This document shows positions 9,223 to 57,046 of a DNA stretch of 64,000 nt, piece after piece. The DNA is taken from contig NW_025942346.1 in the NCBI RefSeq assembly GCF_000764305.2, forward strand, positions 1 through 64,000, written 5' to 3'. The position numbers and the translations under genes are program-made. The DNA comes from Hyalella azteca (Eukaryota > Arthropoda > Malacostraca > Amphipoda > Hyalellidae). Numbering within the stretch: position 1 is the first letter of the stretch; each line of letters opens with the position of its first letter. The notes under the pieces are model-generated. The model was given only the letters and a program-made list of their open reading frames with translations. It was not told where the DNA came from and searched no databases.

Positions 9223-10562
9223 GCCTCATGGGAATGTAGGGGAACAAGAGAGGCGAATGCAGAATTAAGAAGACGTTCATAGTGATATAATGGGTATTTT
9301 ATTGCTCATAACCTAAAGAAAAGAATTCTGCGAATATATCAGTTTGGCTTCAATTTATGCTCGTTTTCTTCTACACTCAGCTATTCTTTAAGGGTGAACT
9401 AACGTTCCAATTTCTTGTAAGGGAAATTATACTTGAAATTAGTACTGATCCCGTACTGTCGAGCCTTTATGTAGCCTAATGTAGGTAAGGTTGTGTAAGT
9501 CTCATTCGTATGCTGAAATAAGTATTGTAATCTGAGTTATAGGGTGTGAAGAGATTGTTACTCAGACATATTGTGACCAGAATAATGGTGCTACATCGGC
9601 CAACATTCCAGGGCTGCGGGTAATGCTGGCACGATCAGTAGCAATACCTATTATTCACCAAGTATTTTATCTACAACACAACAGCGGCTCTTAAACTGCT
9701 ACTATATGCGTATGAAGAATTTGGCTCTCAAGTATCCAGAATTATTTTTTGAAATAAATTTGGCCTGTAGTAGTAAGTTGGGCAATTGTATGTCCGAATA
9801 TTAAATTAATCCGTTAATAGTAAAACAAGCAATAATAGGTCCTGGTAGTAAATAAGTGATTCAATACAAGATCCATGCAAGAGACCGGCTCCTATAATGT
9901 CCCATATTATTCAACAAATTTATGTTGTAGATTTTTATTATACGAAGTGGGTCAGGCATTACTATAAGTTTCTATACTTTCACTTTTCTTTTTTATGTTA
10001 TTATGTGAAGTAAATAATATTTCTAATCTATAATGCTAACATGAATTAATAAACTCAATTTAGAAAAAAATGATGTTGAGGCGTTTAACTTGGAGAGAAT
10101 TGGCTGTAACATATCTGAGAAAATCTCATAAGGAGTTAGCTGTGGACTCTATTAATCTGTTGCGAACTCCTGATCATGGAGCACGCGGCAACACATTATA
10201 GTATAGGGGTAACATATCTACTCTGGCAAATAACATATCGTGCATTTGATTTACTAACGATGAAACGCGCTAACTATTTAAGAGTTTACCGAGCCCCAAA
10301 GAATTGCAGGTAAATGCAAGCGTAATTCAGCACTCAGTTCTGCTTCGTCAGAAATTATTTTGAGATTGAAGTAATTGTAAACTACCAACATTGTCGCTAC
10401 GAGTCAGCTCGACCTCTAGATAGAGATGGTGTATATAACACAGTGGGTATTTATAAAAATGTCCTATGTCGGATCGACGAGTGATGTGAATAGTTTAGTT
10501 ATACCTCGAATCAAAATCAATTCGTTAATGCTCAGTAGTGGCCATTGAGTCACCAGTGCTCG

Positions 10563-10594
10563 CACCTGAAATGCCCTGGATGCTACCTCGATAA
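10563..10594 (+). other. Variable cassette A1 (32 nt)
   Basis: Lies between conserved CCAGTGCTCG and GCTAATATATTTTT. It has GAAATGC near its start (weakly shared), then CCTGGATGCTACCTCGATAA, which is unlike any other copy. Confidence 0.75.
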
Positions 10595-10610
10595 GCTAAT
10601 ATATTTTTGG

Positions 10611-10638
10611 ACCCTAAGTTACCGTTAGGTAATAGGGT
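10611..10638 (+). other. Conserved unit hairpin (type A)
   Basis: Outer stem ACCCT/AGGGT and inner stem TTACC/GGTAA with loop GTTA. All seven type-A copies keep both stems. Confidence 0.75.
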
Positions 10639-11426
10639 ATTATGATGCACGTATATGAAGCTGTAGATATCAATTAAGTATTGAGAGCACTTATAATCTG
10701 CACTTAGTGTAAAGATTTAACTTGATTGTTAAGAGCTTCTCATGTGTTAATGATTTTTTTGCATATAAAGCGTACAGAGATTATTTGCTAGATTGTACTT
10801 CTGGCCAGTTTTAAATTTCGATAATCCGAATCATCGCAATGCATCTGGCAACTTTTCAAGGCTGCGTGTAATGCTTACACAATTAGCACTATGCTTATTA
10901 TTCAAAAAGTAATTTTTAACATCACTACAGCACGTGGATAAACTGACAATCTCCATTGAAAATATGAAATTTCTTGCTCTTATAGCAGTGTAAAAAATGC
11001 TTAGTCCATGAAATATTGAATCTTAGTCTTTGCTATGTCACTAATGCCCGCAATGTCGGACGATCTGAAAGGTTCAATTGAATTAAATCATTTACTATGA
11101 CACCGCACAACGAGTCTACCTGGACGTGGAGTACAGCTTTCTCAACCAGCAACAATTGATGGTGGGCTTTAAGTTATCATTACTAGGTTTGCGTAAAATA
11201 CTTCATGTATTCACTTAAGTAAAGACTAGTTTTCCTTCTAGTTATATGCATCGAACAAAAAATATGTCGCTTGTTCCTGTCAAACTGCTTTTAGCTCATA
11301 ACCTTAGTTGAAAATTGAGGAAATTGTCGCCAATAAATTCTATGCATAACAAATCTATCAAACGGATAAAGAAACTTTGAAAACAGAAGTTTGACAAAAA
11401 ATTTCTTTACAGTATGTAGAAAAAAA

Positions 11427-11597
11427 TATAACTCAGTACTCATTGCAGTGAGTGATAGAGAGCGCATTTTCTCGTCGACGAAAACAAGAAGTCCCGGACG
11501 GACAGACAGACGGACGGACACACGGACGGTCGGACAGACGGACATGTGGCGAGATAAATAGTGCAATTTTTTTAATCAATAAGAAAATGCGCTAAAA
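11427..11597 (-). mobile_element. DINE-1/Helentron-like non-autonomous element 1
   Basis: Minus-strand orientation. It has sub-terminal inverted repeats AGCGCATTTTCTC (11461-11473) and AGAAAATGCGCT (about 11582-11593), a central GACGGACAGACA-type microsatellite, and an end palindrome near 11438-11453. Type-A units without it (51400, 19150) read straight across the site, which shows an insertion. This layout matches DINE-1/Helentron-like elements; the class is an inference. Confidence 0.7.
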
Positions 11598-12284
11598 AGT
11601 GTCCTTTATGAAACACAATCAATATTGTCCTCAAGATTTGTTTTTTATAAAGCAATTTAAACCTTTTTATTACTGAATAAATAACAACTCACTCATTCTG
11701 TACTCGAAAAATTACAGACTTAATGTACAGCATAAGCGATTATCACGCAATGAAGGGTGCGCGTCTGAAATAAATCAACCGTGCAGCAGATTAACAAACA
11801 AATTCTGGAAATTTTTTATTCCCTATGACCAAGAACCTTCCTGTTATTATTTCAGATTTAGGGTTATTGAACTCACGAGTAATGAGTCTACAAGGAATTA
11901 ACCTAATCTGATAGTTATCCTACAGGAGTTTGGATGTAAAATATTTTAATCCAAACACGGCACACGGCTACGCTATTTAACATTGTGTGGTGAGGCATTG
12001 AACCAGGAGAGACTGCGCACTTAGGGTGCAGCGGGCAATCAAAACTCACGAGGAATTGTCCGTAGACCATATTCATTACGTGCGAAGTCTTGATCATAGA
12101 GCATGTGGCACGCATCAGAGTATAGGGGTAACATATCTAAACTGGCACAACAGACATTTGTAATATGATTTCACAACGCTGATATGCGTGGACCACTCTT
12201 CATTATTTCATTTATTTATTTACGAGTTTACCAATTCCATAATTCCATTACGAGTTTACCAATTCCATTCCCTTAATTTAAAAC
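11598..12284 (+). repeat. Type-C leader and 5' part, truncated
   Basis: Contains the shared leader (TATCACGCAATGAAGGGTGC, TTCCTGTTATTATTTCAG), the GAGGCATTGAACCAGGAGAG block, the head (TCTTGATCATAGAGCATG at 12090) and TAGGGGTAACATATCTAAAC. It ends at a short duplicated ACGAGTTTACCAATTCCATT where a single 116-bp monomer begins. Confidence 0.8.
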
Positions 12285-12408
12285 AAGCTATGATGCTTTA
12301 CTCGAGTTATCATGATGACTTGATCTTGGTATCATCTCATGTTGTCTTTAGCATCATGTTTATTTAGTATATATATATGTTCTCTACCCGCCCACCTGCT
12401 GCAAGCTA
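12285..12408 (+). repeat. Single 116-bp-type monomer
   Basis: One copy of the repeat found three times in tandem at 5182-5530, with a slightly longer TA run. It sits exactly where the type-C unit breaks off. Confidence 0.9.
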
Positions 12409-17310: not shown

Positions 17311-18296
17311 GTCAATGTTCTCACATAGCTATATTGTAGACACTGAAACATTGCATCAATATACATTGATGCGCAGTACACAGTAATATATTGAAGTGGT
17401 AATTGTAACTGCACTGTAAGCCGTTCAATATTACAATAATTTTGATACGAGAACTTTAGGCATTACAATACTTTTGTATCTGAACTGCAGAATGTAGATA
17501 GAGCCACGGTGCAGGAAAATTCTTGGAACCGTAAATTGTACGAAGTAGTTGATGCCCTCCACAAGCTAAAAGAATTCTAGGAATATATCAGTTTGGCTTC
17601 AATTCACGCTCGTTTTCTTCTACGCTCAGTAATTCTTTAAGGTTGTACAAACGTTCCAATATCTTGTAAGAGAAATTATACTTGAAATTAGTTTTGATCC
17701 CGTACTGTCGAGCCTGTATGTAGGTGTGTATAAAAGTGACTGTAACACTTATGATAAAATCTCATAAAGAGTTAGCTGTGGACTCTATTAATCAGTTGCG
17801 AACTCTTGATCATAAAGCACGCGGCAACACTTTGTAATATAGGGGTAACATATCTACTCCGGCATATAACATTTCGGTCATTTGATTTGTTAACGATGAA
17901 ACACGAAAACTATTTAAGAGCTTACAGAGCCCCGAAGAATGGCAGGTAAATGCAAGCCTCATTCAACACCCAGTTCTGCTTCGTCAGAAATTATTTTCAG
18001 ATTGAAGTAATTGTAAACTACCAACATAGTCGCTACGAGTCAGCTCGACCTCTAGATACAGATGGTGTATATAACATCATGAAATAACAGCGAGTGAGGC
18101 ATATGAAGCTCCTCAATACATTGATTTTCATATGTACAAGTTTTCTCCTCTCTGATGCAGGCACTGAAGGGTCATAGTGTGTATTTTTAAAAATGTCCTA
18201 CGTCTGATCGACGAGTGATGTGAATAACTTAGTTATACTTCGAACCGAAATCAATTCGTTAATGCTCAGTAGTGGCCGTTGAGTCACCATTGCTCT

Positions 18297-18327
18297 CCCA
18301 GTAAATATTGGGACGCCATGCTAGATA
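18297..18327 (+). other. Variable cassette A2 (31 nt)
   Basis: Flanked by CACCATTGCTCT and CTAATATATTTTT. The core includes GGGACGCCATGCTAGATA, unlike other copies. Confidence 0.75.
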
Positions 18328-18342
18328 CTAATATATTTTTGA

Positions 18343-18370
18343 ACCCTAAGTTACCGTTAGGTAATAGGGT
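18343..18370 (+). other. Conserved unit hairpin (type A)
   Basis: ACCCT/AGGGT and TTACC/GGTAA with loop GTTA. Confidence 0.75.
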
Positions 18371-19354: not shown

Positions 19355-20970
19355 CTAATTATTAGTTACGAAGTCCTGATCATATAGCATGCGGCATGCA
19401 TCAGAGTACAGGGATAACATATGTAAACTGGCACATAAGAGGTATGTCATTTAATTAACGCTGAAATGCGTGGATCACCATTCATCATTTTATTAAATTA
19501 AATGAGAGTTTAACCAGCCCCTAATCATTGCAGTTAAACGTAAGCTTAATGCAGCATTCAATTGCAGCTTGTTCAATAAATCATCTAGGATTGATGTCAC
19601 TGAAAACTGCCTTCCTCTCTTCATTGTTAATACAAGTCAGCTTGTCCTCTTAATAAGGCTGTCGCATGTAACACCAATAAATAATAACATGTGAGGCACG
19701 TTGCCCAATTTTAATGATTTTCTGTTATGCGTACAAGTTATTCAGTCTTTGATGCAGCAGCTGAGCATTCGTAGTGTTGCTGTAGTGTTTCAGCATTCAG
19801 AGCAGTTATGTTATTATTTCAGTTATGCTTCAAAACAAGTCTATAATGTTTGTACTCAGTGATAGCTATATCGAATCCACTTGAATTCCACATTCAGACG
19901 GTGCCGCATAGAGGTATAAAAATATTGATATATTCTTCAACCCTGAGTTATCCTCTGGATGGCTAACGGGTATTGTAGCCTAAGTGCGACTTGGTAGTTG
20001 AAAATTGTTGGCCTCTCAGTAAGGTATTGCAAATGCTATTACACCGAGTGTACCGTTGGCAATTCACTGTATAAATATTTCTCATTTTATTTATTATTAA
20101 ATAATATGAAACGGACAGAATTTATTATTAACTTTACTCATGACCGTATTGGAATTGCTCATTTATTAGTTATAAAATTTCTCTCCCTCAATAGGGTATA
20201 TGAGCCTTAAACCGAAATAAAACGAATTAGGGAAAGATTTCTTAACTAACATGCATAATTTCCGTCTACTTTACCCCAAACTATTACTATTATAAATTTT
20301 AAGTTAGGAGAATCAGGAAAAAATAATTCCGTAATTCCGTTTCTCTGATCCGTAGGAGCAGGTTCTTCAAAAGTTTTTTTTTAATTTAGAGTAATTGGAA
20401 TTTCTATTTTACGCAACTTCCAGACTGTAGGTTTACATTGATAATTACATTGTACGCTACCATTTCAGATTTATTTCAATAAAATTATAAAAACGCCGTG
20501 TAAGAAAGTATTAAAATTATTCATTTTGTTCATCGAATATATGTGTAACATTCAACAATTCAAACATTTGTATTATTTTTTGCCGACTCAATCAATCTAG
20601 TTAATAAATGACAGGCTTTATATTTTTTGTTGTTGCGATGCCACTAGGAAAGAGTGGAAGAGAACAAGAGGTGGCGCAGAGTGGCCAGGAAGAGGAAAGA
20701 GAAATGGAAAGGACAGTAGGAGATGGAAAGGCGCATTGCGCATGATTTGGTCGGTTGAAGGTGATTGGGGTTGTTTGGGGTTGGGGTGCTTTATATACAT
20801 ATTTGTTTTCCACTGACAAGTTGCTTGCTTATGAAATACAATTTCAGGCGAAGATGAATGAAATACAATTACATGAACTAATAGAGGGATCAATGTTGTA
20901 TGTCCGCAGGACAATACGATACCGTACTCAGTTGATGGTTATATTGCTCATAACCCAAAGAATAACTCAG
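19355..20970 (+). repeat. Type-B unit, full length
   Basis: Head at 19368-19400, central TTTGATGCAGCAGCTGAGC at about 19756, cassette at about 19891-19917, hairpin 19940-19971. The 3' part holds the insert between CTTTATA copies at 20616-20622 and 20789-20795. A 70-codon frame downstream of the hairpin (to 20210) is open but lacks an ATG start. Confidence 0.85.
19891..19971 (+). other. Type-B cassette plus hairpin
   Basis: The cassette runs CATTCAGACGGTGCCGCATA then GAGGTAT. It shares TGCCGCAT with the copy at 33850 but differs elsewhere. Hairpin ACCC (19940-19943) with GGGT (19968-19971). Confidence 0.6.
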
Positions 20971-22108: not shown

Positions 22109-22429
22109 CTTTTGTCGATACATGGACGCTTTTCCTCTCAATAGAACTGGCTAATATAACACCAAATAAATATTAACATGCGAGGCACATTACGCTTATA
22201 TAAGCATTTGCTGCTAGGCGTACAAGTTATCTATTCTCTGCTGCAGCCGCTGAGCGTTCGTAGTGTTGCTATAGATGAGGTGTTGAAGCGGTAGAAGGGG
22301 CTATATCAATAGAACAGTTATGCTTCGAAAAAAGTCAATCTCGTGCGTAATCAGTGATGGCGGTATCAAATCAGTTCGGGAATGTAGAAAGAGTGAAAGT
22401 TCGATAAATTGGTCATGTATAGTTTTTAA

Positions 22430-22455
22430 CCCTGAAATATCTCCTTGATGATAGG
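22430..22455 (+). other. Conserved unit hairpin (type C)
   Basis: CCCT (22430-22433) pairs with AGGG (22452-22455), with TATC facing GAT inside. The sequence is different from types A and B; the outer pairing is kept. Confidence 0.55.
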
Positions 22456-23280
22456 GCGAGTGTAAAAAGTATTGTTGAAATGTGGTCGACGAATAATGAT
22501 CACTGAGTTAGGAACCGCAAATGAGAATTACACGGAATGTGTCGTTAATAATTTTCTGTAAAAATTTTCTTGTTTAATAATATTTGATTATATTAAACAG
22601 ACAGAATTTATCTTTAGGCTCACTCCTGATCGCATTGAAATTGCTCATTTATTAGGTTGAAATTTCTCGCGCACTCAATTGGATAAGTAAGCCCTAATTA
22701 AACCGAAGTAAAACGAATTAGGGTAACATTTCTCAACTAACATGCATTATTTCTGCCTGCTTCACCCAAAACTATGTCTAAAATTAATTTTAGGTTAAAA
22801 GAACCATGAAAAATTATTTTGTTTCCGTGATCCGTGGGGGCAGGTTCTGGAAATGCTTCCTTAATTTAAAGTAATTAGAAGCTCTATGTTCCCCAACTTC
22901 CAGACTGTACATTAAATTGGTAATTATATAGTACAATACCATTTCAGATTTATTTCATTAATATTAAATAAAAATGTTGTATACAAAATTTTAGAAACTT
23001 TTATTTTGTTCATCAAATATATGTTCAACATACAACAATGTAAACTTATAAATCATTTTTGTGAGTTAATCAATCTGTGGTTAATAAATCGCAGATTTTC
23101 AATACAAGATTATTTTCCACTGACAAGTTGCTCATTTATGACATACAATTTCTGGAGGAGAACGTTCAATTTTTTCGTTGTAATTTGTATGTGTTATTCA
23201 TTACCTCAATAACCTATTACACCAACTCATAAACTGAACAATGTTGTCTGTACGCTGGGCAATCACGATACCAAACTTAG

Positions 23281-25170: not shown

Positions 25171-26915
25171 TCAAAATTAAGGTGTAGCAATATATATACT
25201 ATATATTGCTTCATCACAATGATATATCAAGCTGAACAGTGTATAATATATACAGACTTGAGGCAGTGATATATTCTAATGATATTCGAATCTATACTAT
25301 ATATTGCTTCATCGCAATGACATTTCAAGCTGAACAGTGAATAATTCAAAGTCATGTCAATGTTCTCACATAGCTGTACTGTAGACACTGAAACATTGCA
25401 TCAATATACATTGATGCGCAGTACACAGTAATATATTGCAGTGGTAATTGTAACTGCACTGTAAACCGTTCAATATTACAATAATTTTGATGCGTGAACT
25501 TTAAGCATTACAATACTTTTCTATCTGAACTACAGAATGTAGATAGAGCCACGGTGCAGAAAAATTCTTGGAACCGCAAATTGTACGACGTAGTTGATGC
25601 CCTTCGCGGGCTAAAAGAATTCTGTGAATATATCAGTTTGGCTTCAATTCACGCTCGTTTTCTTCTACGCTCAGTAATTGTTTAAGGGTGTACTATCGTT
25701 CCAATTTCTTGTAAGGGAAATTACACTTGAAATTAGTTCTGATCCCGTACTGTCGAGCCTTTATGTAGGTGTGTATAAGTAAGGTTGTGAAAGTCTCATT
25801 CGTATACTGAAATAAGTATTGAAATCTGAGTTATAGGATGTGAAGAGATTGTTACTCAGACATATTGTGACCACAATAATGGTGCTACGTCCGCCAACAT
25901 TCCAGGGCTGCGGGTAATGCTGGCACGATCAGTAGCAATACTTATTATTAATCAAGTATTTTGTCTACAACAAAACAGCGCGTCTTAAACTGCTACTATA
26001 TGCGTATGAAGATTTTGGCTCTCAAGTATCCAGAATTTTTTTTTTTTTTGAAATAAATTTGGCCTGTTGTAGTAAGTTGGGCAATTCTAAGTCCTAATAT
26101 TAAATTAGTGATTCGAGACAAGATCCATGCAGAGACCGGCTCTTATAATTACCAATATTATACGGCGAATTTATCTTATAGAATCTTGTTTTACGTAGTG
26201 GGTCAGGCATTATTATAAAAGTTTTTATCCTTTCACTTTTCTTTAGTTAGGTTATTCTGAAGAGTAAATAATATATCTAATTTATAATGCTAACAGGAAT
26301 TAATATACTCAATTTCTCGAAAAAAATGATGTTGAGGCGTTTAACTTGGAGAGAACTGGCTGTAACATTTATGAGAAAATTTCATAAAGAGTTAGCTGTG
26401 GACTCTATTAATCAGTTGCGAACTCTTGATCGTAGAGCACGTGGCAACACATTATAGTTTCGGGGTAACATATCTACTCTGGCATATAACATATCGGTCA
26501 TTTGATTTGCTAACGATGAAATGCCTTAACTATCTAAGAGCTTACAGAGCCTCGAAGAATTCCAGGTAAATGCAAGCGTAATTCAACACCCAGTTCAGCT
26601 TCGTCGGAAATTCTTTTGAGATTGAAGTAATTGTAAACTATCAAAATTGTCGCAACGAGTCAGCTCGACCTCTATATACAGATGGTGTATATAACATCAT
26701 GAAATAACAGTGAGTGAGGCATATGAAGCTTTCAATACATTGATTTTCATATGTACAAGTTTTCTCCTCTCTGATGCAGGCACTGAAGGGTCATAGTGTG
26801 TATTTTTAAAAATGTCCTATGTCTGACCGCAGGGTGATGTGAATAATTTAGTTATACCTCGAACCGAAATCAATTCGTTAATGCTCAGTAGTGGCCGTTG
26901 AGTCACCATTGCTTC

Positions 26916-26949
26916 CACAAGAATTGTCAAAGGGAAGAAAGCTTCCTAA
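26916..26949 (+). other. Variable cassette A3 (34 nt)
   Basis: Flanked by CACCATTGCTTC and AATATTTTTAAACCC. Contains GGAAGAAAGCTTCC, which could form a 5-bp hairpin of its own. Unlike other cassettes. Confidence 0.75.
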
Positions 26950-26960
26950 AATATTTTTAA

Positions 26961-26988
26961 ACCCTCAGTTACCGTTAGGTAATAGGGT
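26961..26988 (+). other. Conserved unit hairpin (type A)
   Basis: ACCCT/AGGGT and TTACC/GGTAA with loop GTTA. Confidence 0.75.
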
Positions 26989-33335: not shown

Positions 33336-34852
33336 TAGACTACATTCTTTAGTTCCGAAATCTTGGACAAAGACATTCATCAGAGTAAATGGGTAACATA
33401 CCATAACGCTGAAATGCGTGGACCACCAGTCATCATTATATTAAATTAAATAAGAGTTTAACCAGCCCCTAATCATTGCAGTTAAATGTAAGCTTAATCC
33501 AGCATTCAATTGCAGCTAGTTCAAAAATCGTTAGAGATTGCTGTAACTGTAAACCACCTTCCTCTCTCCGTTGTCGATACAAGTCAGAGTGACCTCTTAA
33601 TAAAGGAAAGCTATGGAATATAACACCAATATATATTAAGATTTGAGGCACATTGCCCAATTTTAAGGGTCTTCTCTTAGGCGAATAAGTTATTCTTTCC
33701 TTAATGCAGCAACTGAGCATTCGTAGTGTTGATGTAGATGAGTTTCAGCACTCTGAGCAGTTATGTTATTAGCTCAGTTATGCTTCAAAACAAGTCCATA
33801 ATGTCCGTAATCAGTTATAGCTATATTGAATCCACTTGAATTCCTCCATTATGGGACGATGACGCACTGCCGCATGCTGGCATCAAAATATTGATATATT
33901 TTTGAACCCTGAGTTAGCCTCTGGATGGCTAACGGGTATTGTAGCCTAAGTGCGACTTAGCAGTTTAAAATTAATGGCCTCTCAGTAAGGTATTGCCAAT
34001 GCTATTACACCAAGTGTACCATTGGTAATTTACTGTATAAATATTTCGCATTTTATTCATTATTAAATAATATGAAACGGAAAGAATTTATTATTAACTT
34101 TACGCATGACCGTATTGGAATTGCTCATTTATTAGTTATAAAATTTCTCTCGCTCAATAGGGTAAATGAGCCTTAAACCGAAGTAAAACGAATTAGGGAA
34201 AGATTTCTTAACTAACATGCATCATTTCCGTCTACTTTACCCCAAACTATCACTATTATAAATTTTAGGTTGGAAGAATCAGGAAAAAATAATTCCGTTT
34301 CTCTGATCCGTAGGAGCAGGTTCTTCAAAAGTTTTTTTTTTAATTTAGAGTAATTGGAAGTTCTATTTTACGCAACTTCCAGACTGTAGGTTTATATTGA
34401 TAATTACATAGTACGCTACCATTTCAGATTTATTTCAATAAAATTATAAAAAGTCATGTAACAAAGTATTAAAATTATTCATTTTGTTCCTCGAATATAT
34501 GTGTAACATTCAACAATTAAAACATTTATATTATTTTTGCCGACTCAATCAATCTGTAGTTAATAAATGGCAGGCTTCATATTTTTTGTTGTTGCGGTGC
34601 CACTAAGAAAGAGTGGAAGAGAACAAGAGGTGGCGCAGAGTGGCCAGGAAGATGAAAGAGAAATGGAAAGGACAGTAGGAGATGGAAAGGCGCATTGCGC
34701 ATGATTTGGTTGGTTAAAGGTGATAGGGAAGTTTGCGGTTAGGGTGCTTTATAAACATATTTGTTTTCCACTGACAAGTTGCTTACTTATGAAATACAAT
34801 TTCAGGCGAAGAAAGTTCAATTTTGTTTCTGTAATTTGTATCTGTAATTCAT
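33336..34852 (+). repeat. Type-B unit, full length
   Basis: The head is shortened (TCTTGGACAAAGACATTC). The central CCTTAATGCAGCAACTGAGC block is at 33701, the cassette at about 33850-33884, the hairpin at 33906-33937. The insert's left flank is CTTCATA (one change), its right flank CTTTATA at 34747-34753. The downstream 70-codon frame is open but has no start codon. The unit breaks at 34855 by deletion of the LINE-containing segment present in the 8-kb and 39-kb copies. Confidence 0.8.
33850..33937 (+). other. Type-B cassette plus hairpin
   Basis: Cassette TATGGGACGATGACGCACTG then CCGCATGCTGGCATC, after conserved GAATTCCTCCAT. Hairpin ACCC (33906-33909) with GGGT (33934-33937). Confidence 0.6.
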
Positions 34853-36162: not shown

Positions 36163-36520
36163 AGCAGGTAAATGCAAGCATAATTAAGCACCCAGTTCTA
36201 CTTCGTCAGAAATTCTTTTGAAATTGAAGTAATTGTAAACTACCAACATTGTCGCTACAAGACAGCTCGACCTCTATATACAGATGGTGTATATAACATC
36301 AAGAAATAACAGCGAATGAGGCATATGAAGCTCCTTAATACATTGATTTTCATATGTACAAGCTTTCTCCTCTCTGATGCAGGCACTGAAGGATCATAGT
36401 GAGTATTTCTAAAAAAATGTCCTACGTCGGAGCGACGAGTGATGTGAATAGTTTAGTTATACCTCGAACCGGAATCAATTTGTTCATGCTCAGTAGTGGC
36501 GGTTGAGTAATCATTGCTCT

Positions 36521-36552
36521 CAGCTCAATTGCTTCTAGGGCACTAATAGCAC
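36521..36552 (+). other. Variable cassette A4 (32 nt)
   Basis: Flanked by TCATTGCTCT and GCTAATATATTTTT. After CAATTGC it reads TTCTAGGGCACTAATAGCAC. Confidence 0.75.
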
Positions 36553-36568
36553 GCTAATATATTTTTGA

Positions 36569-36596
36569 ACCCTCAGTTACCTTAAGGTAATAGGGT
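36569..36596 (+). other. Conserved unit hairpin (type A, loop TTAA)
   Basis: Stems ACCCT/AGGGT and TTACC/GGTAA are intact; the loop is TTAA instead of GTTA. Confidence 0.75.
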
Positions 36597-37570: not shown

Positions 37571-39210
37571 AGTGGTTGTCTAATTATTAGTAGCGAAGTC
37601 CTGATCATATAGCATGTGGCATGCATCAGAGTACAGGGATAACATATCTAAACTGGCACATAAGAGGTATGTCATCTAATTAACGCAAAAATGCGTGGAC
37701 CATCATTCATCATTTTATTAAATTAAATGAGAGTTTAACCAGCCCCTAACCATTGCAGTTAAACGTAAGTTTAATGCAGCATTCAATTGCAGCTTGTTCA
37801 ATAAATCATTTAAGATTATTGTAACTGAAAACTACCTTCCTCTCTTCATTGTTAATACAAGTCAGCTTGACCTCTTAATAAAGCTGTCGTTTATAACACC
37901 AATATATATCAACATGTGAGGCACATTGCCCAATTTTAAGGATTTTCTTCAAGGCGTACAAGTTATTCATTCTTTGATGCAGCAACTCAGCATTCGTAGT
38001 GTTGCTGTATAGTGAGTTTCAGCTCTCAGAGCAGTTATGTTATTAGCTCAGTAATGCTTCAAAACAATTTGCTAATATTTATGCTCAGTGATAGCTATAT
38101 TGAATCCACTCGAATCCCATCTTTTGGTTTCAATAGTATATTGTTTAATTAATGAATATATTTTTAAACCCTAACGTATCCGCTGGATGGCTAAAAGGGA
38201 TATTAGCTTGCGTGTGATTTACGAGTAGATGGCGATTAATGGCCTCTCTGTAAGGGATTGCAAATGCTATTACACCGAGTGTGCCGTTGCTAATTTGCTC
38301 TATAAATATTTCGTATTTTATTTATTATTAAATAATATGAAACGGAAAGAATTTATTATTAACTTTACGCATGACCGTATTGGAATTGCTCATTTATTAG
38401 TTATAAAATTTCTTTCGCTCAATATTGTAAATGAGCCTTAAACCGAAGTAAAACGAATTAGGGTAAGATTTCTTAACTAACATGCATCATTTCCGTCTAC
38501 TTTGCCCCAAACTATCACTATTATAAATTTTAGGTTGGAAGAATCAGAAAAAATAATTCCGTTTCTCTGATCCGTAGGAGCAGGTTCTTCAAAAGTTTTT
38601 TATTTAATTTAGAGTAATTGGAAGTTCTATTTTACGCAACTTTCAGACTGTAGGTTTATATTGATAATTACATAGTACGCTACCATTTCAGATTTATTTC
38701 ATTAAAACTATGAAAAACGTCGTGTAACAAAGTATTAAAATTATTCATTTTGTTCATCGAATATATGTGTAACATTCAACAATTCAAACATTTATATTAT
38801 TTTTGCCGACTCAATCAATCTGTAGTTAATAAATGGCAGGCTTTATATTTTTTGTTGTTGCGGTGCCACTAGGAAATAGTGGAAGAGAACAAGAGGTGGC
38901 GCAGAGTGGCCAGGAAGAGGAAAGAGAAATGGAAAGGACAGTAGGAGATGAAAAGGCGCGTTGCGCATGATTTGGTTGGTTAAAGGTGATAGGGGTAGTT
39001 AGCGGTTGGGGTGCTTTATAAACATATTTCTTGTCCACTGACAATTTGCTTACTTATGAAATACAATTTCAGGCGAAGAAAGTTCAATTGTGCTTCTGTA
39101 ATTTGTATCTGTAATTCATTACGTCAATTACCTATTACATGAACTAATAAACTGTATCAATGTTGTCTGTACGCAGGACAATCGCGATACCGAACTCAGT
39201 TGATGGTTTT
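37571..39210 (+). repeat. Type-B unit, full length
   Basis: Head at 37590-37625, central TTTGATGCAGCAACTCAGC at 37974, cassette at about 38118-38153, hairpin 38168-38199. Insert flanks CTTTATA at 38841-38847 and 39014-39020. The downstream 70-codon frame (38229-38441) begins with ATG here. Confidence 0.85.
38118..38199 (+). other. Type-B cassette plus hairpin
   Basis: Cassette begins CCATCTTTTGGTTTCAATAG and is AT-rich. In the hairpin only ACCCT/AGGG-like outer pairing and TCC/GGA remain; the GTTA/TAAC pair is damaged. Confidence 0.5.
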
Positions 39211-39835: not shown

Positions 39836-41267
39836 ATGTAGGGGAACAAGAGAGGCGAATGCAGAATTAAAAAGACGTTCATAGTGGTATAATGGGTATT
39901 TTATTGCTCATAACCTATAGAAAAGAATTCTGCGAATATATCAGTTTGTCTTCAATTTATGCTCGTTTTCTTCTACGCCCAGTAATTATTTAAGGGTGAA
40001 CTAACGTTCCAATTTCTTGTAAGGGAAATTATACTTGAAATTAGTTCTGATCCCGTACTGTCGAGCCTTTATGTAGGTGTGTATAAGTAAGGTTGTGAAA
40101 GTCTCATTCGTATAATGAAATAAGTATTGAAATCTGAGTTATAGGATGTGAAGAGATTGTTACTCAGACATATTGTGACCAGAATAATGGTGCTACATCG
40201 GCCAACATTCCAGGGCTGCGGGTAATGCTGGCACGATCAGTAGCAATACTTATTATTCACCAAGTATTTTATCTACAACACAACAGCGCCTCTTAAACTG
40301 CTACCACATGCGTATGAAGATTTTGGATCTCAAGTATCCAGAATTCTTTTTTGAAATAAATTTGGCCTGTAGTAGTAAGTTGGGCAATCGTATGTCCTAA
40401 TATTAAATTAATCCGTTAATAGTAAATCAAGCAATAATAGGTCCTAGTAGTAAATAAGTGATTCAAGACAAGATCCATGCAAGAGACCGGCTCTTATAAT
40501 TACCAATATTATCCAGTGAATTTACCTTATAGAATCTTATTTTACGTAGTGGGTCGGGCATTACTATAAAAGTTTGTATCCTTTCACTTTTCATTATTTA
40601 GGTTATTATGTAAAGTGAATAATATTTCTAATTTAAAATGCTAACATGAATTAATATAATCAATTTTCAGAAAAAAATGATGTTGAGGCGTTTAACTTGG
40701 AGAGAATTGGCTGTAACATTTATGAGAAAATCTCATAAAGAGATAGCTGTGGACTCTATTAATCAGTTGCGAACTCTTTATCATAGAGCACGCGGCAACA
40801 CATTATAGTATAGGGGTAACATATCTACTCCGGCATATAACATTTTGGTCATTTGATTTGCTAGCGATGAAACACGTAAACTATTTAAGAGCTTACAGAG
40901 CCCCGAAGAATTGCAGGTAAATGCAAGCGTAATTCAGCACCCAGTTCTGCTTCATCAGAAATTCTTATGAGATTGAAGTAATTGTAAACTACCAACATAG
41001 TCGCTACGAGTCAGCTCGACCTCTATATACAGATGGTGCATATAACATCATGAAATAACAACGAGTGAGGCGTATGAAGCTCCTCAATACATTGATTTTC
41101 ATATGTACAAGTTTTCTCCTCTCTGATGCAGGCACTGAAGGGTCATAGTGTGTATTTTTAAAAATGTCCTACGACGGATCGACGAGTGATGTGAATAATT
41201 TAGTTATACCTTTAACCAAAATAAATTCGTAACTGCTTAGTAGTGGCCGTTGAGTCACCATTGCTCT

Positions 41268-41298
41268 CACAACAAATGCTCCTGGTGCAAGGCATTTT
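41268..41298 (+). other. Variable cassette A5 (31 nt)
   Basis: Flanked by CACCATTGCTCT and GCTAATATATTTTT. It contains AAATGC and GCATTT around TCCTGGTGCAAG, so it can fold into its own hairpin. Confidence 0.75.
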
Positions 41299-41314
41299 GC
41301 TAATATATTTTTGA

Positions 41315-41342
41315 ACCCTCAGTTACCGTTAGGTAATAGGGT
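41315..41342 (+). other. Conserved unit hairpin (type A)
   Basis: ACCCT/AGGGT and TTACC/GGTAA with loop GTTA. Confidence 0.75.
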
Positions 41343-42293: not shown

Positions 42294-43930
42294 GTGTCCT
42301 ATATGAAACACAATCAATATTGTCCTCAAGATTTGCTCTTTATAAAGCAATTTAAACCTTTTTATTACTAAATAAATACCAACTCACTCATTCTGTACTC
42401 GAAAAATTGCAGGCTTAATGTACAGCATAAACGATTATCACGCAATGAAGGGTGCACGTCTGAAATAAATCAACCGTTCAGCAGATTAACAAACAAATTC
42501 TGGAAATTTTTTCTTCCCTTGACCAAGAATCTTCCTGTTTTTATTTCAGATTTAGGGTTATTGAACTCACGAGCAATGATTCTACAAGGAATTAACCTAA
42601 TCTGATATTTATCCTACCGGAGTTTGAATGTGAAATATTTTAATACAAGCACGGCACACGGCTAAGACACATAATGTTGTGTGGTGAGGCGTTGAACTGG
42701 TTGAGGCTGCGCACCTAGTATGAAATCGGGCAATCAAAACTCACGAGGAGTTGTCCGTAGACTATATTCATTAGTTACGAAGTCTTGATCATAGAGCATG
42801 TGACACACATCAGAGTATAGCGGTAACATGTCTAAACTGGCACATCAAACATATGTCATATGATGTAATAACGCTGAAATGCGTGGAACACTACTCATCA
42901 TTTTATTTAATTATTTAAGAGTTTATCAATTCCATAGTAATTGCAGTTAAACTCAAGCTTAATCCAACACACAGAGGCAGCTTCTGCAGAAAATTACATG
43001 AGATTGAAGTAACTGGAAATTGTCTACCTCTCATCATTGTCGATACAAGAAAGCTTGACCTTTTAATAAATTTATCGTATATAATACCAATACATATTAA
43101 CAGGCGAGGCACATTACCCTATTGCAAGTATTTTCTCTTAGGCGTACAAGTTATCTATTCTTTGCTGCAGCCTTGGAGCGTTCGTAGAGCTGCGGTAGAG
43201 TTTCTGCCCGAGGACGGATCAAATTAATAAATCAGTTATGCTTGAAAATGTATCAAGGTTGTTTATGCTCAGTAAGAGCGCTATCGAATTGACTTGAAGT
43301 TTCATTAATGGAAATGATATTAAAAAATAATATCGCTTTCTATTTTTAAACCCTTATTTTTCTCATGGATAATAGGAATAAATTCGAGTGAGGAATAATA
43401 AGTAGTCGAAGAATATAGGACCCATAAGCAGGGGCTTCCGCATATGTAATTTACTGTAAGAATATTACTTATTTTATTTATTAATAATCATATTAAACGA
43501 AAATAATTTATCTTTAAGTTTGTTCATGACCGTATTGAAATTTCTCATTTATTAGGTATAAAAAATTTCGCACTCAATAGGGTAAATAAGCCTTAAATCG
43601 AAGTAAAACGAATTAAGGTAACATAGCTTGACTATTTTGGATAATTTCTGCCCGTTTTACCACAAACTATCACTACAATGAATTTTAGGTTAAAAGAACC
43701 AGGAAATATAATTTCGTTTCCCTCATCAGTATGGGCTGGTTCTCCAAATGCTTCCTTAATTTAAAGTAATGAGAAGCTCCATGTTCCCCAATTTCCAGAC
43801 TGTACATTAATATTGGTAATTATATAGTACACTACCATTTCAGATTTATTTCCTTAACATTATAACTATGGGGAATAACTGCGCGGAAAGCTTCATGTCA
43901 ATAATATGACACACTTGCACTGCACAGCGC
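42294..43930 (+). repeat. Type-C unit with leader
   Basis: Leader ATCACGCAATGAAGGGTGCA, then GTGGTGAGGCGTTGAACTGG (42682), head TCTTGATCATAGAGCATG (42783-42800), central CTTTGCTGCAGCCTTGGAGC (about 43160), variable site around 43305-43340, hairpin about 43351-43376. The 3' part is more diverged than in other type-C copies and ends near 43930 at a partial 116-bp monomer. Confidence 0.75.
43351..43376 (+). other. Conserved unit hairpin (type C, weak)
   Basis: CCT with AGG and TATT with AATA can pair. This is the weakest copy of the hairpin. Confidence 0.4.
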
Positions 43931-45429: not shown

Positions 45430-46995
45430 ATATTAGTTGCGAAGTCCTGATCATAGAGCATGTGGCATGCATCAGAGTACAGGGATAACATATTTAAACT
45501 GGCACATCAGAGGTATGTCATTTGATTAACACTGAAATGAGGGGACCACCATTCATCATTTTATTAAATTAAATAAGAGTTTAACCAGCACCTAATCATT
45601 GCAGTTAAACGTAAGCTTAATCCAGCATTCACTTGCAGCTAGTTCAATAAATCATTTGAGATTGATGTAATTGAAAACTGCCTTCCTCTCTTCATTGGTA
45701 ATACAAGTCAGCTTGCCCTCTTAATAAAGCTGTCGTATGTAACACCAATAAATATTAACATGTGATGCACATTGCCCAATTTTAATGATTTTCTTTTAGG
45801 CGTGGAAGTTATTCATTCTTTGATGCAGCAGCTGAGCATTCGTAGTGTTGTTGTAGTGAGTGTCAGCACTCAGAGCAGTTATGTTATTAGCTCAGTTATG
45901 CTTCAAAACGAGTCCATAATGTTCGTGCTCAGTGATAGCTATATTGAATCCACTCGTATTCCACCAGTTGTGTGTGATAACCTGGCATGAAAATGCAATT
46001 ATATTTTTAAACCCTAAGTTATCCTTTGGATGGCTAACGGGGATTGTAACTTCATTGTAACTTTTGAGTGATGAATAATGGCCTCTCTGTAAGGGATTGG
46101 AAATTCAATTACACCGAGTATACCGTTGGTAATTTACTGTATAAATATTTCGTATTTTATTTATTATTAAATAATATGAAACGGGCAGAATTTATTTTTA
46201 ACTTTACTCATGACCGTATTGGAATTTCTCATTTATTAGTTATAAAATTTCTGTCGCTCAATATGGTAAATGAGCCTTAAACCGAAGTAAAACGAATTAG
46301 GTTAAGATTTCTTAACTAACATGCATCATTTCCATCTACTTTACCCCAAGCTATCACTATTATAAATTTTAGGTTGGAAGAATCAGGAAAAAATAATTCC
46401 GTTTCTCTGATCCGTAGGAGCAGGTTCTTCAAAAGTTTTTTTTTTTTAATTTAGAGTAATTGGAAGTTCTATTTTACGCAACTTCCAGACTGTAGGTTTA
46501 TATCGATAATTACATAGTACGCTACCATTTCAGATTCTTTTTTATTAAAATTATAAAAAGTCGTGTAACAAAGTATTAAAATTAATCATTTTGTTCATCG
46601 AATATATGTGTAACATTCAACACATCAAACATTTATATTATTTTTGCCGACTCAATCAATCTGTAGCTAATAAATGGCAGGGTTTATATTTTTTGTTGTT
46701 GCGGTGCCACTAGGAAAGAGTGGAAGAGAACAAGAGGTGGCGCAGAGTGGCCAGGAAGAGGAAAGAGAAATGGAAAGGACAGTAGGAGATGAAAAGGCGC
46801 GTTGCACATGATTTGGTTGGTTGAAGGTGATTGGGGTTGTATGGGGTCGGGGTGCTTAATATACGTACAAGATTGTTTTCCAATGACAAGTTGCTTACTT
46901 ATGAAATACAATTTCAGGCGAAGAAAGTTCAATTTTGAATCTTTAATTTGTATCTGTACTTTATCACGTCAATAACCTATTACACGAACTAAAAA
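45430..46995 (+). repeat. Type-B unit, recent duplicate of the 7-kb copy
   Basis: Nearly the same sequence as 7000-8515, including cassette (45963-45989) and hairpin (46011-46042). The insert's target flanks are changed here (GTTTATA; CTTAATA). The 70-codon frame is also open. Confidence 0.85.
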
Positions 46996-47512: not shown

Positions 47513-47596
47513 GCAAAAATTTAGTCACCATTTGGACAATGTGACACATCCGGTTTTTTTTTTTTTTGAGTCATTTCCTGGTCATTTTAACATCCG

Positions 47597-50044: not shown

Positions 50045-50555
50045 GCACTCTTTTAATCAGTTGCGAACTCTTGATCATAGAGCACGTGGCAACACATTAT
50101 AGTATCGGGGTAACATATCTACTCCGGCATATAACATTTCGGTCATTTGATTTGCTAGCGACGAAACACGGAAACTATTTAAGAGCTTACAGAGCCCCGA
50201 AGAATTGCAGGTAAACGTAATTCAGCACCCAGTTCCACTTCGTCAGAAATTCTTTTGAAATTGAAGTAATTGTAAAATACCAACATAGTCGCTACGAGAC
50301 AGCTCGACCTCTATATGCAGATGGTGAATATAACATCACGAAATAACAACGAATGAGGCATATGAAGCTTCTCAATACATTGATTTTCATTTGTACAAGA
50401 TTTTTGTTCTCTGATGCATTCACTGAAGGGTCATAGTGTGTATTTTTAAAAATGTCCGACGTCGGGGCGACGAGTGATGTGAATAATTTAGTTATACCTT
50501 GAACCGAAATCAATTCGTTCATGCTCAGTGGTAGTGGTTGAGTAACCATTGCTCT

Positions 50556-50585
50556 CATTTTATTTGCTCGCAGGGCTCCTGAATC
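50556..50585 (+). other. Variable cassette A6 (30 nt)
   Basis: Flanked by ACCATTGCTCT and GCTAATATATTTTT. After ATTTGC it reads TCGCAGGGCTCCTGAATC, with a possible CAGG/CCTG hairpin. Confidence 0.75.
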
Positions 50586-50601
50586 GCTAATATATTTTTG
50601 A

Positions 50602-50629
50602 ACCCTCAGTTACCGTAAGGTAATAGGGT
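50602..50629 (+). other. Conserved unit hairpin (type A, loop GTAA)
   Basis: ACCCT/AGGGT and TTACC/GGTAA intact; loop GTAA. Confidence 0.75.
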
Positions 50630-51790: not shown

Positions 51791-53015
51791 GATAACGTAG
51801 TGTGGTGAGGCGTTGAACGCGGAGAGACTGCGCCCCTAGAGTGCAGCGGGCAATCAAAACTCACGATGAGTTTACCGTAGACTATATTCATTAGTTGCTA
51901 GGTCTTGATCACAGAGCATGTGACTTGCATTAGAGAATAGGGGTAACATATCTAAACTGGCGCATCAAACATATGTCATATGATTTCATATCACTGAAAC
52001 GCGTAGACTCCTATTCATTATTTTATTTAATTATATAAAAGTTTATCAAACCCCTACGAATTGCTGTCAAAAGTAAGGTTAATCCAAGACACAGTTGCCG
52101 GTTCTTCAGAAAATCGCATGAGATCAAAGTAATTGAAAATTGTTAGCATTTCTTTATTGTCGATACATGGACGCTTTTCCTCTCAATAGAACTGGCTAAT
52201 ATAGCACCAAATAAATATTAACATGCGAGGCACATTACGCTTATATAAGCATTTGCTGTTAGGCGTACAAGTTATCTATTCTCTGCTGCAGCCGCTGAGG
52301 GTTCGTAGTGTTGCTATAGATGAGGTGTTGAAGCGGTAGAAAGGGCGATATTAATAGTACAGTTATGCTTCAAAAAAAGTCAATCTCGTGCGTAATCAGT
52401 GATAGCGGTATCAAATCAGTTCGGGAATGTATTAGGTATGAATGTTCAATAAATTGGTTTAGTATATTCTGAAACCCTGAATTTTCTCATAGATAATAGG
52501 GCGACTGTCGAGAGTACTATTAAAATTTAGTCGACGGATAATGGTCACTGAGTAAGGAATCGCAAATGAGAATTACACCGAATGTGTCGTTAATAATTTT
52601 CTGTAAAATTTTTCTTTTTAATGATATTTGATCATGTTAAACAGACAGAATTTATCTTTAAGCTCACTCCTGATCGCATTGAAATTGCTCATTTATTAGG
52701 TTGAAATTTCTCGCGCACCCAATTGGGTAAGTAAGCCCTAATTAAACCGAAGTAAAACGAATTAGGGTAACATTTCTCAACTAACATGCATTATTTCTGC
52801 CTGCTTTACCCAAAACTATCACTAAAATGAACTTTAGGTTAAAAGAACCATGTAAAATTATTTTGTTTCCATGATCCGTATGGGCTGGTTCTCCAAATGC
52901 TTCCTTAATTTAAAGTAATTAGAAGCTCTATGTTCCCTAACTTCCAGACTGCAGATAATTATTAGTAATTATATAGTACACTAATTATATAGTACACTAC
53001 CATTCAGATTTATTT
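51791..53015 (+). repeat. Type-C unit
   Basis: GTGTGGTGAGGCGTTGAACG at 51799, head TCTTGATCACAGAGCATG (51903), TAGGGGTAACATATCTAAAC, central TCTGCTGCAGCCGCTGAGG at 52283, short variable site (about 52432-52440) and hairpin 52475-52501. Lacks the 148-base insertion of the 21.5-kb copy and lacks the type-B insert. Confidence 0.85.
52475..52501 (+). other. Conserved unit hairpin (type C)
   Basis: CCCT/AGGG, ATT/AAT and TCT/AGA around CAT. Nearly every stem base differs from type A except the outer ones. Confidence 0.6.
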
Positions 53016-55122: not shown

Positions 55123-55268
55123 TGGCACGCGTTTGTCTGTCTCGCAAAGTTGGCCATCCCAGGCCGTGTGTTGCATGTTATTCACACAGCAAGTCCGGCA
55201 GAAACGATGCGAGACCCGCCGTGCTGCTCTACGTTGCACTTTTTAGAGGCTGGCAATATCGTCTGATG

Positions 55269-55382
55269 TCAGCTGTACCGTGTCAGCTGTGCGCAGGAGT
55301 GTCAGCTGTGCGCAGGAGTGTCAGCTGTGCGCAGGAGTGTCAGCTGTGCGCAGGAGTGTCAGCTGTGCGCAGGAGTGTCAGC
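55269..55382 (+). repeat. 19-bp tandem array, ended by gap
   Basis: About six copies of GTCAGCTGTGCGCAGGAGT, the last one running into the gap. Frames across it are not credible. Confidence 0.95.
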
Positions 55383-55417
55383 NNNNNNNNNNNNNNNNNN
55401 NNNNNNNNNNNNNNNNN
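55383..55417. other. Assembly gap (35 N)
   Basis: Unknown bases between the 19-bp array and repeat G, so the left edge of that repeat is not reliable. Confidence 0.99.
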
Positions 55418-56203
55418 TGTTTGTTAGTGTATAATATGTTTGTTTATTATAATGCCCTTATATATGCTTTTATTATAGATCCTATATATTTGTTTATTAT
55501 TGCGCCCATATTTGATCATTAATTAGTCATTAAAGGATGTACCTCTGGAAGATGGCGCCCGTCCTCCCTACCGCCCCCGCCGCCCGCGAGAAGAACAGAA
55601 TGGAAGAACGCGACGATCGACCGCGCGCACCTCACCTTGCAACTGCTGGAAGCGCACTGACTCCGGAGGCGAGCTTGAGCTAGAGTGCAACTTCCTGCCA
55701 AGGCTCTACAGACAAGAAGTCTTGAGAAAAGCATCCTATGCATGAAGGAATTTTGATCCTGCTTACAACATTTAGACTTCATCGATGCTACAGAAAGATA
55801 AAACAATTCATTTTAGTATAATTAAAAATATTCTACGCAATACAAGGAACATTTTATTTGGATGGCATGAATATTGGAGCTTTCTAAATCACCTGCAGCA
55901 TCAGATACTCTTGAGGACCTCAAGCACCACCATATGGCAACACCGTCCTGTACATGCCAAATGTCACCAGTTGCTCGAAATAACCTGGAATTTGGCAATT
56001 GTTGACGGCCTAGCCTTAATCCTGTTATATTTTATAGAACAAAAGCAATGTTTTCGTTTTTCTATTACTGAAATAGGAACCAGCAGATAGCTACTGCTAT
56101 TTGCTGGTTTGTTTAATGGGTTTTAACATCTCAAGTTTTGGTTTGCTTGCCTGCAGGAAGAACTTGCGAAGCCTGCCGTGAATGACCGAGCTGGCGCTGA
56201 AAC
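55418..56203 (+). repeat. Dispersed repeat G, copy 2 (empty hAT site)
   Basis: Matches copy 1 and continues across the hAT target site with a single GTTTAATG (56111-56118 region). The GC-rich core is nearly unchanged. Confidence 0.75.
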
Positions 56204-56969
56204 CTATTCTTCAGATATACAACTACATTTTGACATATCCTTTATCCCTCTATCTAGATTATTTTTCGAGATTTTCTTTCCTTATTTTATTTTCTTTCCT
56301 TATTTTATGCTGTAGAGTAAATAATATATCTAATTTATAATGCTATCATGAATTAATATACTCAATTTTTAGAGAAATGAATGATGTTGAGGCGTTTAAC
56401 TTGGAGAGAAGTTACTGTATCATATATGAGAAAATCTCATAAAGAGTTAGCTGTGGACTCTATTAATCTGTTGCGAACTCTTGATCATAGAGCACGCGGC
56501 AACACATTATAGTATCGGGGTAACATATCCACTCTGGCATATAACATATCTTTCATTTGATTTGCTAACGATGAAACACGGAAACTATTTAAGAGCTTAC
56601 AGAGCCCCGAAGAATTGCAGGTAAATGCAAGCGTAATTAAGCACCCAGTTCTGCTTCTTCAGAAATTATTTTCAGATTGAAGTAATTGTAAACTTCCAAC
56701 ATAGTCGCTCCGAGACAGCTCGACCTCTATATACAGATGGTGTATATAACATCATGAAATAACAACGAATGAGGCATATGAAGCTCCTCAATACATTGAT
56801 TTTCATATGTACAAGTTTTCTTCTCTCTGATGCAGGCACTGAAGGGTCATAGTGTGTATTTTTAAAAATGTCCTATGTCTGATAGACGAGTGATGTGAAT
56901 AATTTAGTTATACCTCGAACTGAAATCAATTCGTTAATGCTCAGTAGTGGCCTTTGAATAACCATTGCT

Positions 56970-57002
56970 GATGTAAGAATTGCTGCGGTTGCCCGTACCT
57001 TT
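56970..57002 (+). other. Variable cassette A7 (33 nt)
   Basis: Flanked by AACCATTGCT and GCTAATATATTTTT. After GAATTGC it reads TGCGGTTGCCCGTACCTTT. Confidence 0.75.
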
Positions 57003-57018
57003 GCTAATATATTTTTGA

Positions 57019-57046
57019 ACCCTCAGTTACCGTTAGGTAATAGGGT
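57019..57046 (+). other. Conserved unit hairpin (type A)
   Basis: ACCCT/AGGGT and TTACC/GGTAA with loop GTTA. Confidence 0.75.

Follow-up and report, generated by a model that had tools for sequence, protein, structure and literature searches.

Candidate tandem genes for short Sm-class RNAs with a hypervariable segment in the amphipod Hyalella azteca

Sm-class small nuclear RNAs (snRNAs) are among the most conserved RNAs. Here we describe a family of repeated units in a 64,000-nt stretch of the Hyalella azteca genome (positions 1 to 64,000, forward strand, of contig NW_025942346.1, RefSeq assembly GCF_000764305.2), hereafter the window. Seven A-type units of the window share a promoter-like block, a hypervariable segment at one fixed site (the cassette), an Sm-like site and a 3' stem-loop, and B-type units form a second branch that follows this plan with weaker Sm sites. 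Judged from the sequence, an A unit is most likely the gene for a ~65-nt, U7-like Sm-class RNA with a hypervariable 5' arm, and this arm probably serves as an antisense guide and evolves under diversifying selection.

One of the closest described systems is U7 RNA. In U7, a 5' antisense arm is followed by an Sm site and a 3' stem-loop; its single conserved arm is complementary to histone pre-mRNA, and its Sm site is of a special kind. U7 RNA is ~60 nt long and carries an Sm-type protein ring (PMC7026596). The units resemble it as putative short Sm-type RNAs in which the order arm, Sm site and 3' stem-loop is predicted, but they occur as many copies with differing arms, their A-type Sm sites read AUUUUUG, and we do not assign them to U7. 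The HSUR RNAs of Herpesvirus saimiri are viral, longer and few. They are Sm-class RNAs that pair with microRNAs (miRNAs) and mRNAs (PMC6763288, PMC13158664, PMC9226524). An Sm-class non-coding RNA pairing with other RNAs, as HSUR1 and HSUR2 do, is what we propose for the units, which, unlike the HSURs, are cellular, arranged in tandem and hypervariable in the arm.

Spliced-leader (SL) RNAs are also snRNA-type RNAs with an Sm site and stem loops, and they are present in amphipods (PMC7986045, PMC5111886). In contrast, the units lack a GT donor at a constant position and offer little space for it, and their 5' segment is not conserved. We know of no hypervariable arm in the SmY RNAs of nematodes. 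These small Sm-class RNAs, which are mentioned in PMC11229312, are linked to trans-splicing; the units differ in that the window gave no Rfam match at the gathering cut-off. At lax thresholds, one A unit gave 7 Rfam matches and one B unit gave 2, all far below that cut-off. The miRNAs of dodder are arms-race small RNAs in which the guide changes faster than its gene. The units likewise contain a segment that changes faster than the rest of the gene, but no hairpin precursor surrounds their cassette. No report of an snRNA-like cellular family with hypervariable arms was found among the matches listed from the full-text literature covered, from which subscription papers are mostly absent.

All seven A-type places named by the original prediction proved real when read and aligned. 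Both flanking strings that it quoted were exact at two of them (41258 and 50546), and the other five carried 1–4 mismatches summed over both strings. The segment, said to be 30–34 nt long, measured 33–36 nt between CATTGCT/CAGTGCT and TAATATAT/TAAAATAT. On the plus strand of the window, it occupies 10561..10596 (36 nt), 18295..18328 (34 nt), 26914..26946 (33 nt), 36519..36554 (36 nt), 41266..41300 (35 nt), 50554..50587 (34 nt) and 56970..57004 (35 nt) in A units 1 to 7, respectively. In the host assembly (519 Mb, 4890 contigs), contig C4890 bears a COI sequence that matches Hyalella azteca at 99% identity along the entire query, and we accordingly read the window as amphipod nuclear DNA. With the first A unit as query, this assembly gave at least 47 matches, of which at least 19 spanned the cassette region. 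The resulting 19 A units comprise the seven of the window and a further 12 spread over six contigs elsewhere (four on C2748, three on C2091, two on C3397 and one each on C1367, C4303 and C4662); a distant A-type member lies on C1623. The pattern TCAGTAGTGG-N55-80-TATTTTTGAA matched at least 14 places genome-wide and its reversed control none. Of these 14 matches, 12 were A units already found and two lay on C2542, where one is the distant member L049. Rows from C4607, C886, C2542 and C1623 were too distant and were omitted from the A diversity counts.

Diversity along the alignment of the 19 A units was measured as mean pairwise difference in 24-column windows. The two such windows at the cassette reached 0.56 and 0.53, whereas the 14 before it ranged from 0.044 to 0.183 and those after it from 0.061 to 0.288. 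Averaged over all 171 A pairs, the difference was 0.60 in the cassette and 0.12 in the flank. This sharp peak at one site, above the flanks of the same repeats, is the pattern anticipated for a genome-wide alignment. The contrast was strongest between near copies. The four closest A pairs had 8/31, 9/35, 10/35 and 13/35 cassette changes and 6/420, 7/420, 9/420 and 10/420 flank changes, which corresponds to 26–37% against 1.4–2.4% difference and a 13–18-fold ratio in pairs that share members. For the C3397 pair, the ratio was 5. Fisher tests of cassette against flank gave p values of 4e-7, 2e-7 and 9e-8 in three of these four pairs and 7e-5 in the C3397 pair, again with members shared among pairs.

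Two pairs with homology extending 1.5 kb both ways allowed comparison with more distant DNA. W26 and C2748_436 differed at 18/37 cassette positions and by 2–11% in most 150-nt bins, the exceptions being two indel-rich bins (19 and 31%) and the last two bins (13 and 67%). W10 and W41 differed at 15/36 cassette positions and by 1–13% in most bins, with two at 17 and 26%. Far flanks were about as similar as near flanks in both pairs. Since the cassette outpaces even distant flanks, it is not simply the sole unconstrained part of the repeat.

Another conceivable origin of the cassettes is collapsed or chimeric short-read repeats. The assembly does contain N runs and a presumed mate-pair adapter junction: an open reading frame (ORF) at window 2470–2530 reads VSYTHLDVYKRQ, which we take to be a Nextera mosaic-end junction left in the assembly as adapter residue. 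However, the same sharp edges recur in 19 units on seven contigs and coincide with predicted functional borders, and the pairs closest in their flanks are also among the closest in their cassettes. We regard an assembly artefact as extremely improbable.

The cassettes do not appear to be exchanged. The claim that they are exchangeable and replaced as a block was contradicted by the pairs W18/C2748_461, C2748_436/C2748_450 and W56/C2748_436, which differ by single substitutions and small indels (W18/C2748_461 at 5/35 cassette positions under a slightly different cut). An integron-like or CRISPR-like system of exchangeable cassettes was rejected because near copies differ by such point changes and small indels. 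The description of the cassettes as largely unrelated holds for distant copies and fails for close ones, which are alignable and in register. Distant cassettes may seem unrelated because the site is saturated. Most A cassettes retain a residual G..GC core, with G at position 18 and GC at positions 21–22.

The block directly before the A cassette pointed to the promoter class. Matches to host snRNA genes comprised six for U2 (one used as a full gene), 20 for U6, 15 for U5 (all on C849) and one for U1. In the one U1 gene, the one U2 gene and 9 of the 10 U5 loci read, a [C/T]CAGT block begins 40–42 nt before the RNA start. The U5 locus without it is L074, and a variant block is found at L078 and L082. 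The pre-cassette block of the A units (TCAGT...) is similar to this snRNA block. At the place of U5 TGCTCAGTGGTG...CCACCAGTTGCT, the A units show TGCTCAGTAGTGG...CACCATTGCT, and their TGCTCAGTAGTGGC...GTCACCATTGCT resembles U5 TGCTCAGTGGTGC...GGTCCACCAGTTGCT. We therefore read the conserved block as a putative proximal sequence element (PSE). By eye, a distal YAGTYA lies ~78 nt before the start, predicted in the A units, in both U5 and A, and at 91 nt in U2. The PSE spacing common to U1, U2 and U5, with the unit RNA start as predicted from it, would place the units among RNA polymerase II snRNA-type genes, and we are fairly confident that they are snRNA-type genes.

The window was scanned on both strands (127,938 positions) with a position weight matrix (PWM) built from the U1/U2/U5 block. 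The 15 A and B unit sites ranked 5, 6, 8, 12, 22, 27, 28, 43, 53, 129, 203, 511, 726, 732 and 1427, so that nine of the 15 fell within the top 53 and the lowest at 1427. Among the A units, the PSE-like blocks lie on the plus strand at 10532..10560 (rank 12), 18266..18294 (rank 28), 26885..26913 (rank 27), 36490..36518 (rank 43), 41237..41265 (TTAGT, rank 129), 50525..50553 (rank 8) and 56941..56969 (weak, rank 511). Rank 2 (23934) falls in a further B-like stretch. A pre-cassette stem proposed by RNAalifold (AGUAGUGG/CCAUUGCU) was withdrawn as an RNA stem; it coincides with the PSE-like block and is now read as DNA. The TATA-like TATATAA ~227 nt upstream was also dropped as a promoter, its apparent 60-nt island being only the ~98-nt deletion of W10.

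Several other observations touch these promoter-like sequences. The top PSE score (16.7) belongs to a minus-strand site at window 53942, outside any unit, after which no Sm site and stem-loop were seen. A third repeated block, TCAG..ATT..TTTAAGGGTG, occurs at window 9375, 17623, 25668, 35010 and 39976, ~0.7–1.5 kb before A cassettes. Three of its five copies are PSE-like (ranks 9, 17 and 19) and none has a clear Sm site; it is perhaps a decayed third kind of unit. The host U5 cluster (C849:300856-351304) contains at least 15 genes with more than one promoter class, and their 3' stem-loops differ with matching changes.

From the U1, U2 and U5 spacing, the A transcription start is predicted 11–13 nt into the cassette (~10572–10574 in unit 1), or at ~7 if the 3' half of the PSE is taken as the anchor of the alignment. 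The weakly shared AATTGC that had been noted near the start of the cassette coincides with the start predicted from the U1, U2 and U5 spacing. GC content changes at this point: over the 12 nt that precede the predicted start, the 19 A units have 0.342 (78/228), and their arms have 0.557 (246/442; p 1.6e-7). The predicted A RNA is ~65 nt long (~41278–41342 in unit 5) and would consist of an arm with ~23 hypervariable bases, an Sm site and a stem-loop.

After the cassette, UAAUAUAUUUUUGAACCC contains AUUUUUG(A/G), which matches the Sm pattern. An Sm pattern of AT4-6G is used by SL-finding software (PMC7986045). An AU4-6G Sm-like site was present in 17 of 20 A-type units (the 19 and C1623), and the A type thus shows the combination that marks an Sm-class RNA, AU4-6G next to a 3' stem-loop. 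In the window, the Sm-like ATTTTTG and stem-loop together span 10603..10638 in unit 1 (site 10603–10609, stem-loop 10611–10638), 18335..18370 in unit 2 (stem-loop 18343–18370), 36561..36596 in unit 4 (36569–36596), 41307..41342 in unit 5 (41315–41342), 50594..50629 in unit 6 (50602–50629) and 57011..57046 in unit 7 (57019–57046), all on the plus strand; unit 3 has the run ATTTTTA instead (26953..26988, plus strand, stem-loop 26961–26988).

RNAalifold proposed the 3' stem-loop unprompted from the 20 A-type units. Against simple shuffles, its z score was -2.7 to -5.3 in 18 of the 19 A units, -1.7 in C2091_19 and -0.3 in C1623. Within the 20 A-type rows, no stem-loop pair had changes on both sides. 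Among 39 family members, in an alignment that was itself fitted to the structure, helices 2 and 3 (the stem-loop) paired in 92.6 and 93.1% of cells, both-side changes occurred in 6 of 11 stem-loop pairs, and the whole structure scored above all 500 shuffles on all five measures. Helix 1, which is the PSE block, also had double changes in 3 of 8 pairs in these members. The distant members L049 and L050 have the stem rebuilt with other base pairs. No shared fold was found within the cassette, either by eye or by RNAalifold, which places no pairs there. Hairpins seen by eye in single cassettes do not generalise across copies and were discarded.

The B branch repeats this layout. A B-type query returned at least 42 matches on 12 contigs, several of them already known. 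Under the covariance model of the A units, which also recovered further distant members, 10 of 14 B units reached an E value of at most 0.05, and the other four had E values of 0.1–3.8. On the plus strand of the window, B units lie at 7458..7602 (distal element, PSE-like block, variable arm, Sm-like ATTTTTA and 3' stem-loop), 19828..19974 (broken T-run, ATTCTTC), 22323..22463 (weak; A model 11.2 bits, E 2.3), 33783..33940 (long arm, Sm-like ATTTTTG), 38057..38202, 43241..43384 (A model 17.8 bits, E 0.098), 45901..46045 and 52368..52508 (A model 17.6 bits, E 0.11). The stem-loop z score was below -3 in 8 of 14 B units. By eye, ~7 of 16 B1 units carry AU4-6G, two of which are also in the 14-unit set, and most others read AUUUUUA.

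Distal element, PSE, Sm-like run and stem-loop are kept in 16 distinct B1 units. In 69 B1 pairs with a flank difference of 0.12–0.2, the arm differed by 0.61, the flanks by 0.125–0.207 and the PSE by 0.117. Across four classes of flank difference, the B1 arm differed by 0.19, 0.46, 0.61 and 0.67, the PSE by 0.014–0.127, the stretch 29–41 by 0.08–0.47, and the Sm run with stem-loop by 0.03–0.20, in most classes about equal to the nearer flank. These B1 values include duplicate pairs, as L089, which is the same place as L038, was left in the computation. The hypervariable arm is present in two branches that are otherwise about one third different.

Conservation of the RNA-like parts also bears on whether the units are dead or selfish repeats, in which snRNA-promoter fragments were amplified as part of a larger tandem repeat and yield no working RNA. 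The tandem cluster has rearrangements and decayed members: W10 (window 10440) lacks ~98 nt between TATATAA and the PSE region that the other six window A units have, and several B units carry non-canonical Sm runs. Nevertheless, the A Sm site and stem-loop differed by 0.063 while their flanks differed by 0.111–0.128 (0.07–0.12 class), and the B1 PSE differed by 0.127 while downstream sequence differed by 0.333 (most distant class). Compensatory changes occur, and neutral decay would not yield so high a peak. Dead repeats are, in our judgement, improbable.

Further traces of rearrangement were seen in the window. At 35139–36100, upstream A-unit sequence recurs in inverted and rearranged form. 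GGAC/GACA repeat runs occur at 11495–11543, 42166–42240, 47647–47685 and 62119–62151, the first two belonging to an insertion within A units that is related to the last two. A 16-nt satellite (TACCTTTGCTGTGAAC) at 4324–4640 replaces the downstream half of a B unit near 4145–4324, and a second array of it (15956–16211) borders an N run at ~16.2–16.77 kb.

The original prediction suggested a non-coding RNA or DNA element family. A protein-coding variable exon was rejected, as segment lengths of 33, 34, 35 and 36 nt do not change in steps of three. Protein-coding units were rejected as well; one B frame had no homologue, and 1-nt indels and stops break the frames. None of seven window ORFs exceeded the curated Pfam cut-off, with two weak matches in the ORF at 63254–63547, and the three ORFs beside units had no Pfam family. 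The family looks like non-coding RNA genes.

A different non-coding product would be SL RNAs whose variable leaders are transferred to mRNAs by trans-splicing. SL RNAs, too, have an Sm site and stem loops, and amphipods are listed among SL users (PMC7986045), with at least four leader sequences in the amphipod Parhyale (PMC5111886). However, a GT donor is not fixed in position among the units: no offset carries GT in more than 4 of the 19 A units. The SL-finding software expects the Sm motif 20–60 bp after the donor by default (PMC7986045); under this setting, the predicted start, ~30 nt from the Sm site, would leave at most ~10 nt for a leader. The Parhyale leader pattern occurred at two sites, neither with a TCAGT block at 40–42 nt nor with an Sm site and stem-loop, and it did not find SL genes of Hyalella. 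Variable spliced leaders are thus a very unlikely explanation.

The guide-like segment of the original prediction is still the best reading of the arm. The diversity peak supports this part, whereas no complementary targets stood out in the 235 kb compared. In this sequence, the longest antisense matches were 10–14 nt in 17 of the 19 A cassettes, and shuffled cassettes had a mean of 10.7 and a maximum of 14. The other two cassettes gave 35- and 43-nt matches, taken as self-matches of two minus-strand units. Pairing of the 19 A arms with U1, U2, U5 and U6 gave mean z scores of -0.35, -1.17, -0.51 and -0.83 against shuffled arms, respectively. This pairing is little above shuffled for U1, U5 and U6 and somewhat better for U2, a value uncorrected for the shared arm core.

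The lack of two-sided changes within the A rows and the fitting of the 39-member alignment to the structure are joined by several findings that weigh against genes for guide RNAs. Antisense targets of the 19 A cassettes were near chance in the 235 kb, the whole genome not having been scanned. The 8–12 nt ahead of the predicted start match the arm in variability; the ~8-nt spacer between PSE and predicted start gave 0.31 against 0.287 in the four closest A pairs, which share members. The A PSE block overall is not more conserved than the A flanks, non-unit sites stood above units in the PWM scan (ranks 1, 3, 4 and 7), and six U6 loci (by eye) and one U5 locus showed no clear counterpart of the [C/T]CAGT block. 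B arms are not GC-rich (0.348), and the B pair 7303/45745 showed no acceleration, with 1/37 changes at the site against 0–20/150 in flanking bins (2/30 in the arm by eye). The Sm runs of the first B set read AU4-6G in 2, AU4-6A in 6 and neither in 6 of 14 units, and the stem-loop z score was -1.6 to +0.4 in 6 of these 14.

Because the spacer varies although it presumably lies outside the RNA, selection on the RNA alone would be insufficient unless transcription starts earlier. Either the start lies closer to the PSE, or mutation acting locally adds to the variation. The latter leads to a reading in which the units encode an Sm-class RNA without a target at its 5' end (an Sm store or carrier, SmY-like) and the start region is a local mutation hotspot. 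Besides the variable spacer and the absence of targets in the 235 kb, the cassette changes in five pairs agree with it, as 18 transitions and 33 transversions are near random. On the other side, the cassette has sharp edges at the PSE and the Sm site, and the A arm has a GC content of 0.557, whereas a hotspot in a ~36% GC genome would be expected to drift AT-rich. In U5 genes of the same promoter class, no hotspot was seen at the start. For this control, 7 of the 10 U5 loci, those of the main promoter class, were used and three left out; the spacer differed by 0.298, the flanks by 0.275–0.521, and the RNA was most conserved at 0.034. Since the U5 spacer differs like its flanks, the RNA start region is no general hotspot of Hyalella snRNA genes. 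We consider a target-free RNA with a start-site hotspot rather unlikely.

The explanation that we prefer is that the units are tandem genes for short Sm-class RNAs in which the hypervariable segment is mainly a 5' arm serving as a fast-changing antisense guide; taken as a whole, the sequence evidence leaves this reading evenly poised, and the same balance applies to the antisense-guide function of the arm by itself. In the proposed mechanism, an snRNA-type promoter, presumably of RNA polymerase II, with the distal element ~78 nt and the PSE ~41 nt before the start, would drive a ~65-nt RNA in three parts: the 5' arm, the Sm site AUUUUUG and the 3' stem-loop. An Sm protein particle would form on the Sm site and be stabilised by the stem-loop. 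The unpaired 5' arm could then anneal to a target RNA, in the way that U7 recognises histone pre-mRNA. Tandem copies with differing arms would form a repertoire, in which diversifying selection would keep the arms changing and the Sm site and stem-loop constant. The driver, as a guess, may be an arms race against RNAs of transposons or viruses, or against selfish RNAs.

The largest claim, which we make tentatively, is that dozens of tandem U7-like Sm-class RNA genes supply Hyalella with a natural and evolving library of antisense particles. Their 5' guide arms would change about ten times faster than the surrounding DNA, and the library may provide heritable RNA-guided recognition unlike that by PIWI-interacting RNAs, miRNAs or CRISPR. 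A large Sm-class family whose fast-changing part is mainly the predicted pairing arm would reverse the conservation rule of snRNAs. If the arms are guides, the family would add a further RNA-guided system to those of animals, built on small nuclear ribonucleoproteins, and would be a natural counterpart to the engineered U7 Sm-OPT antisense design.

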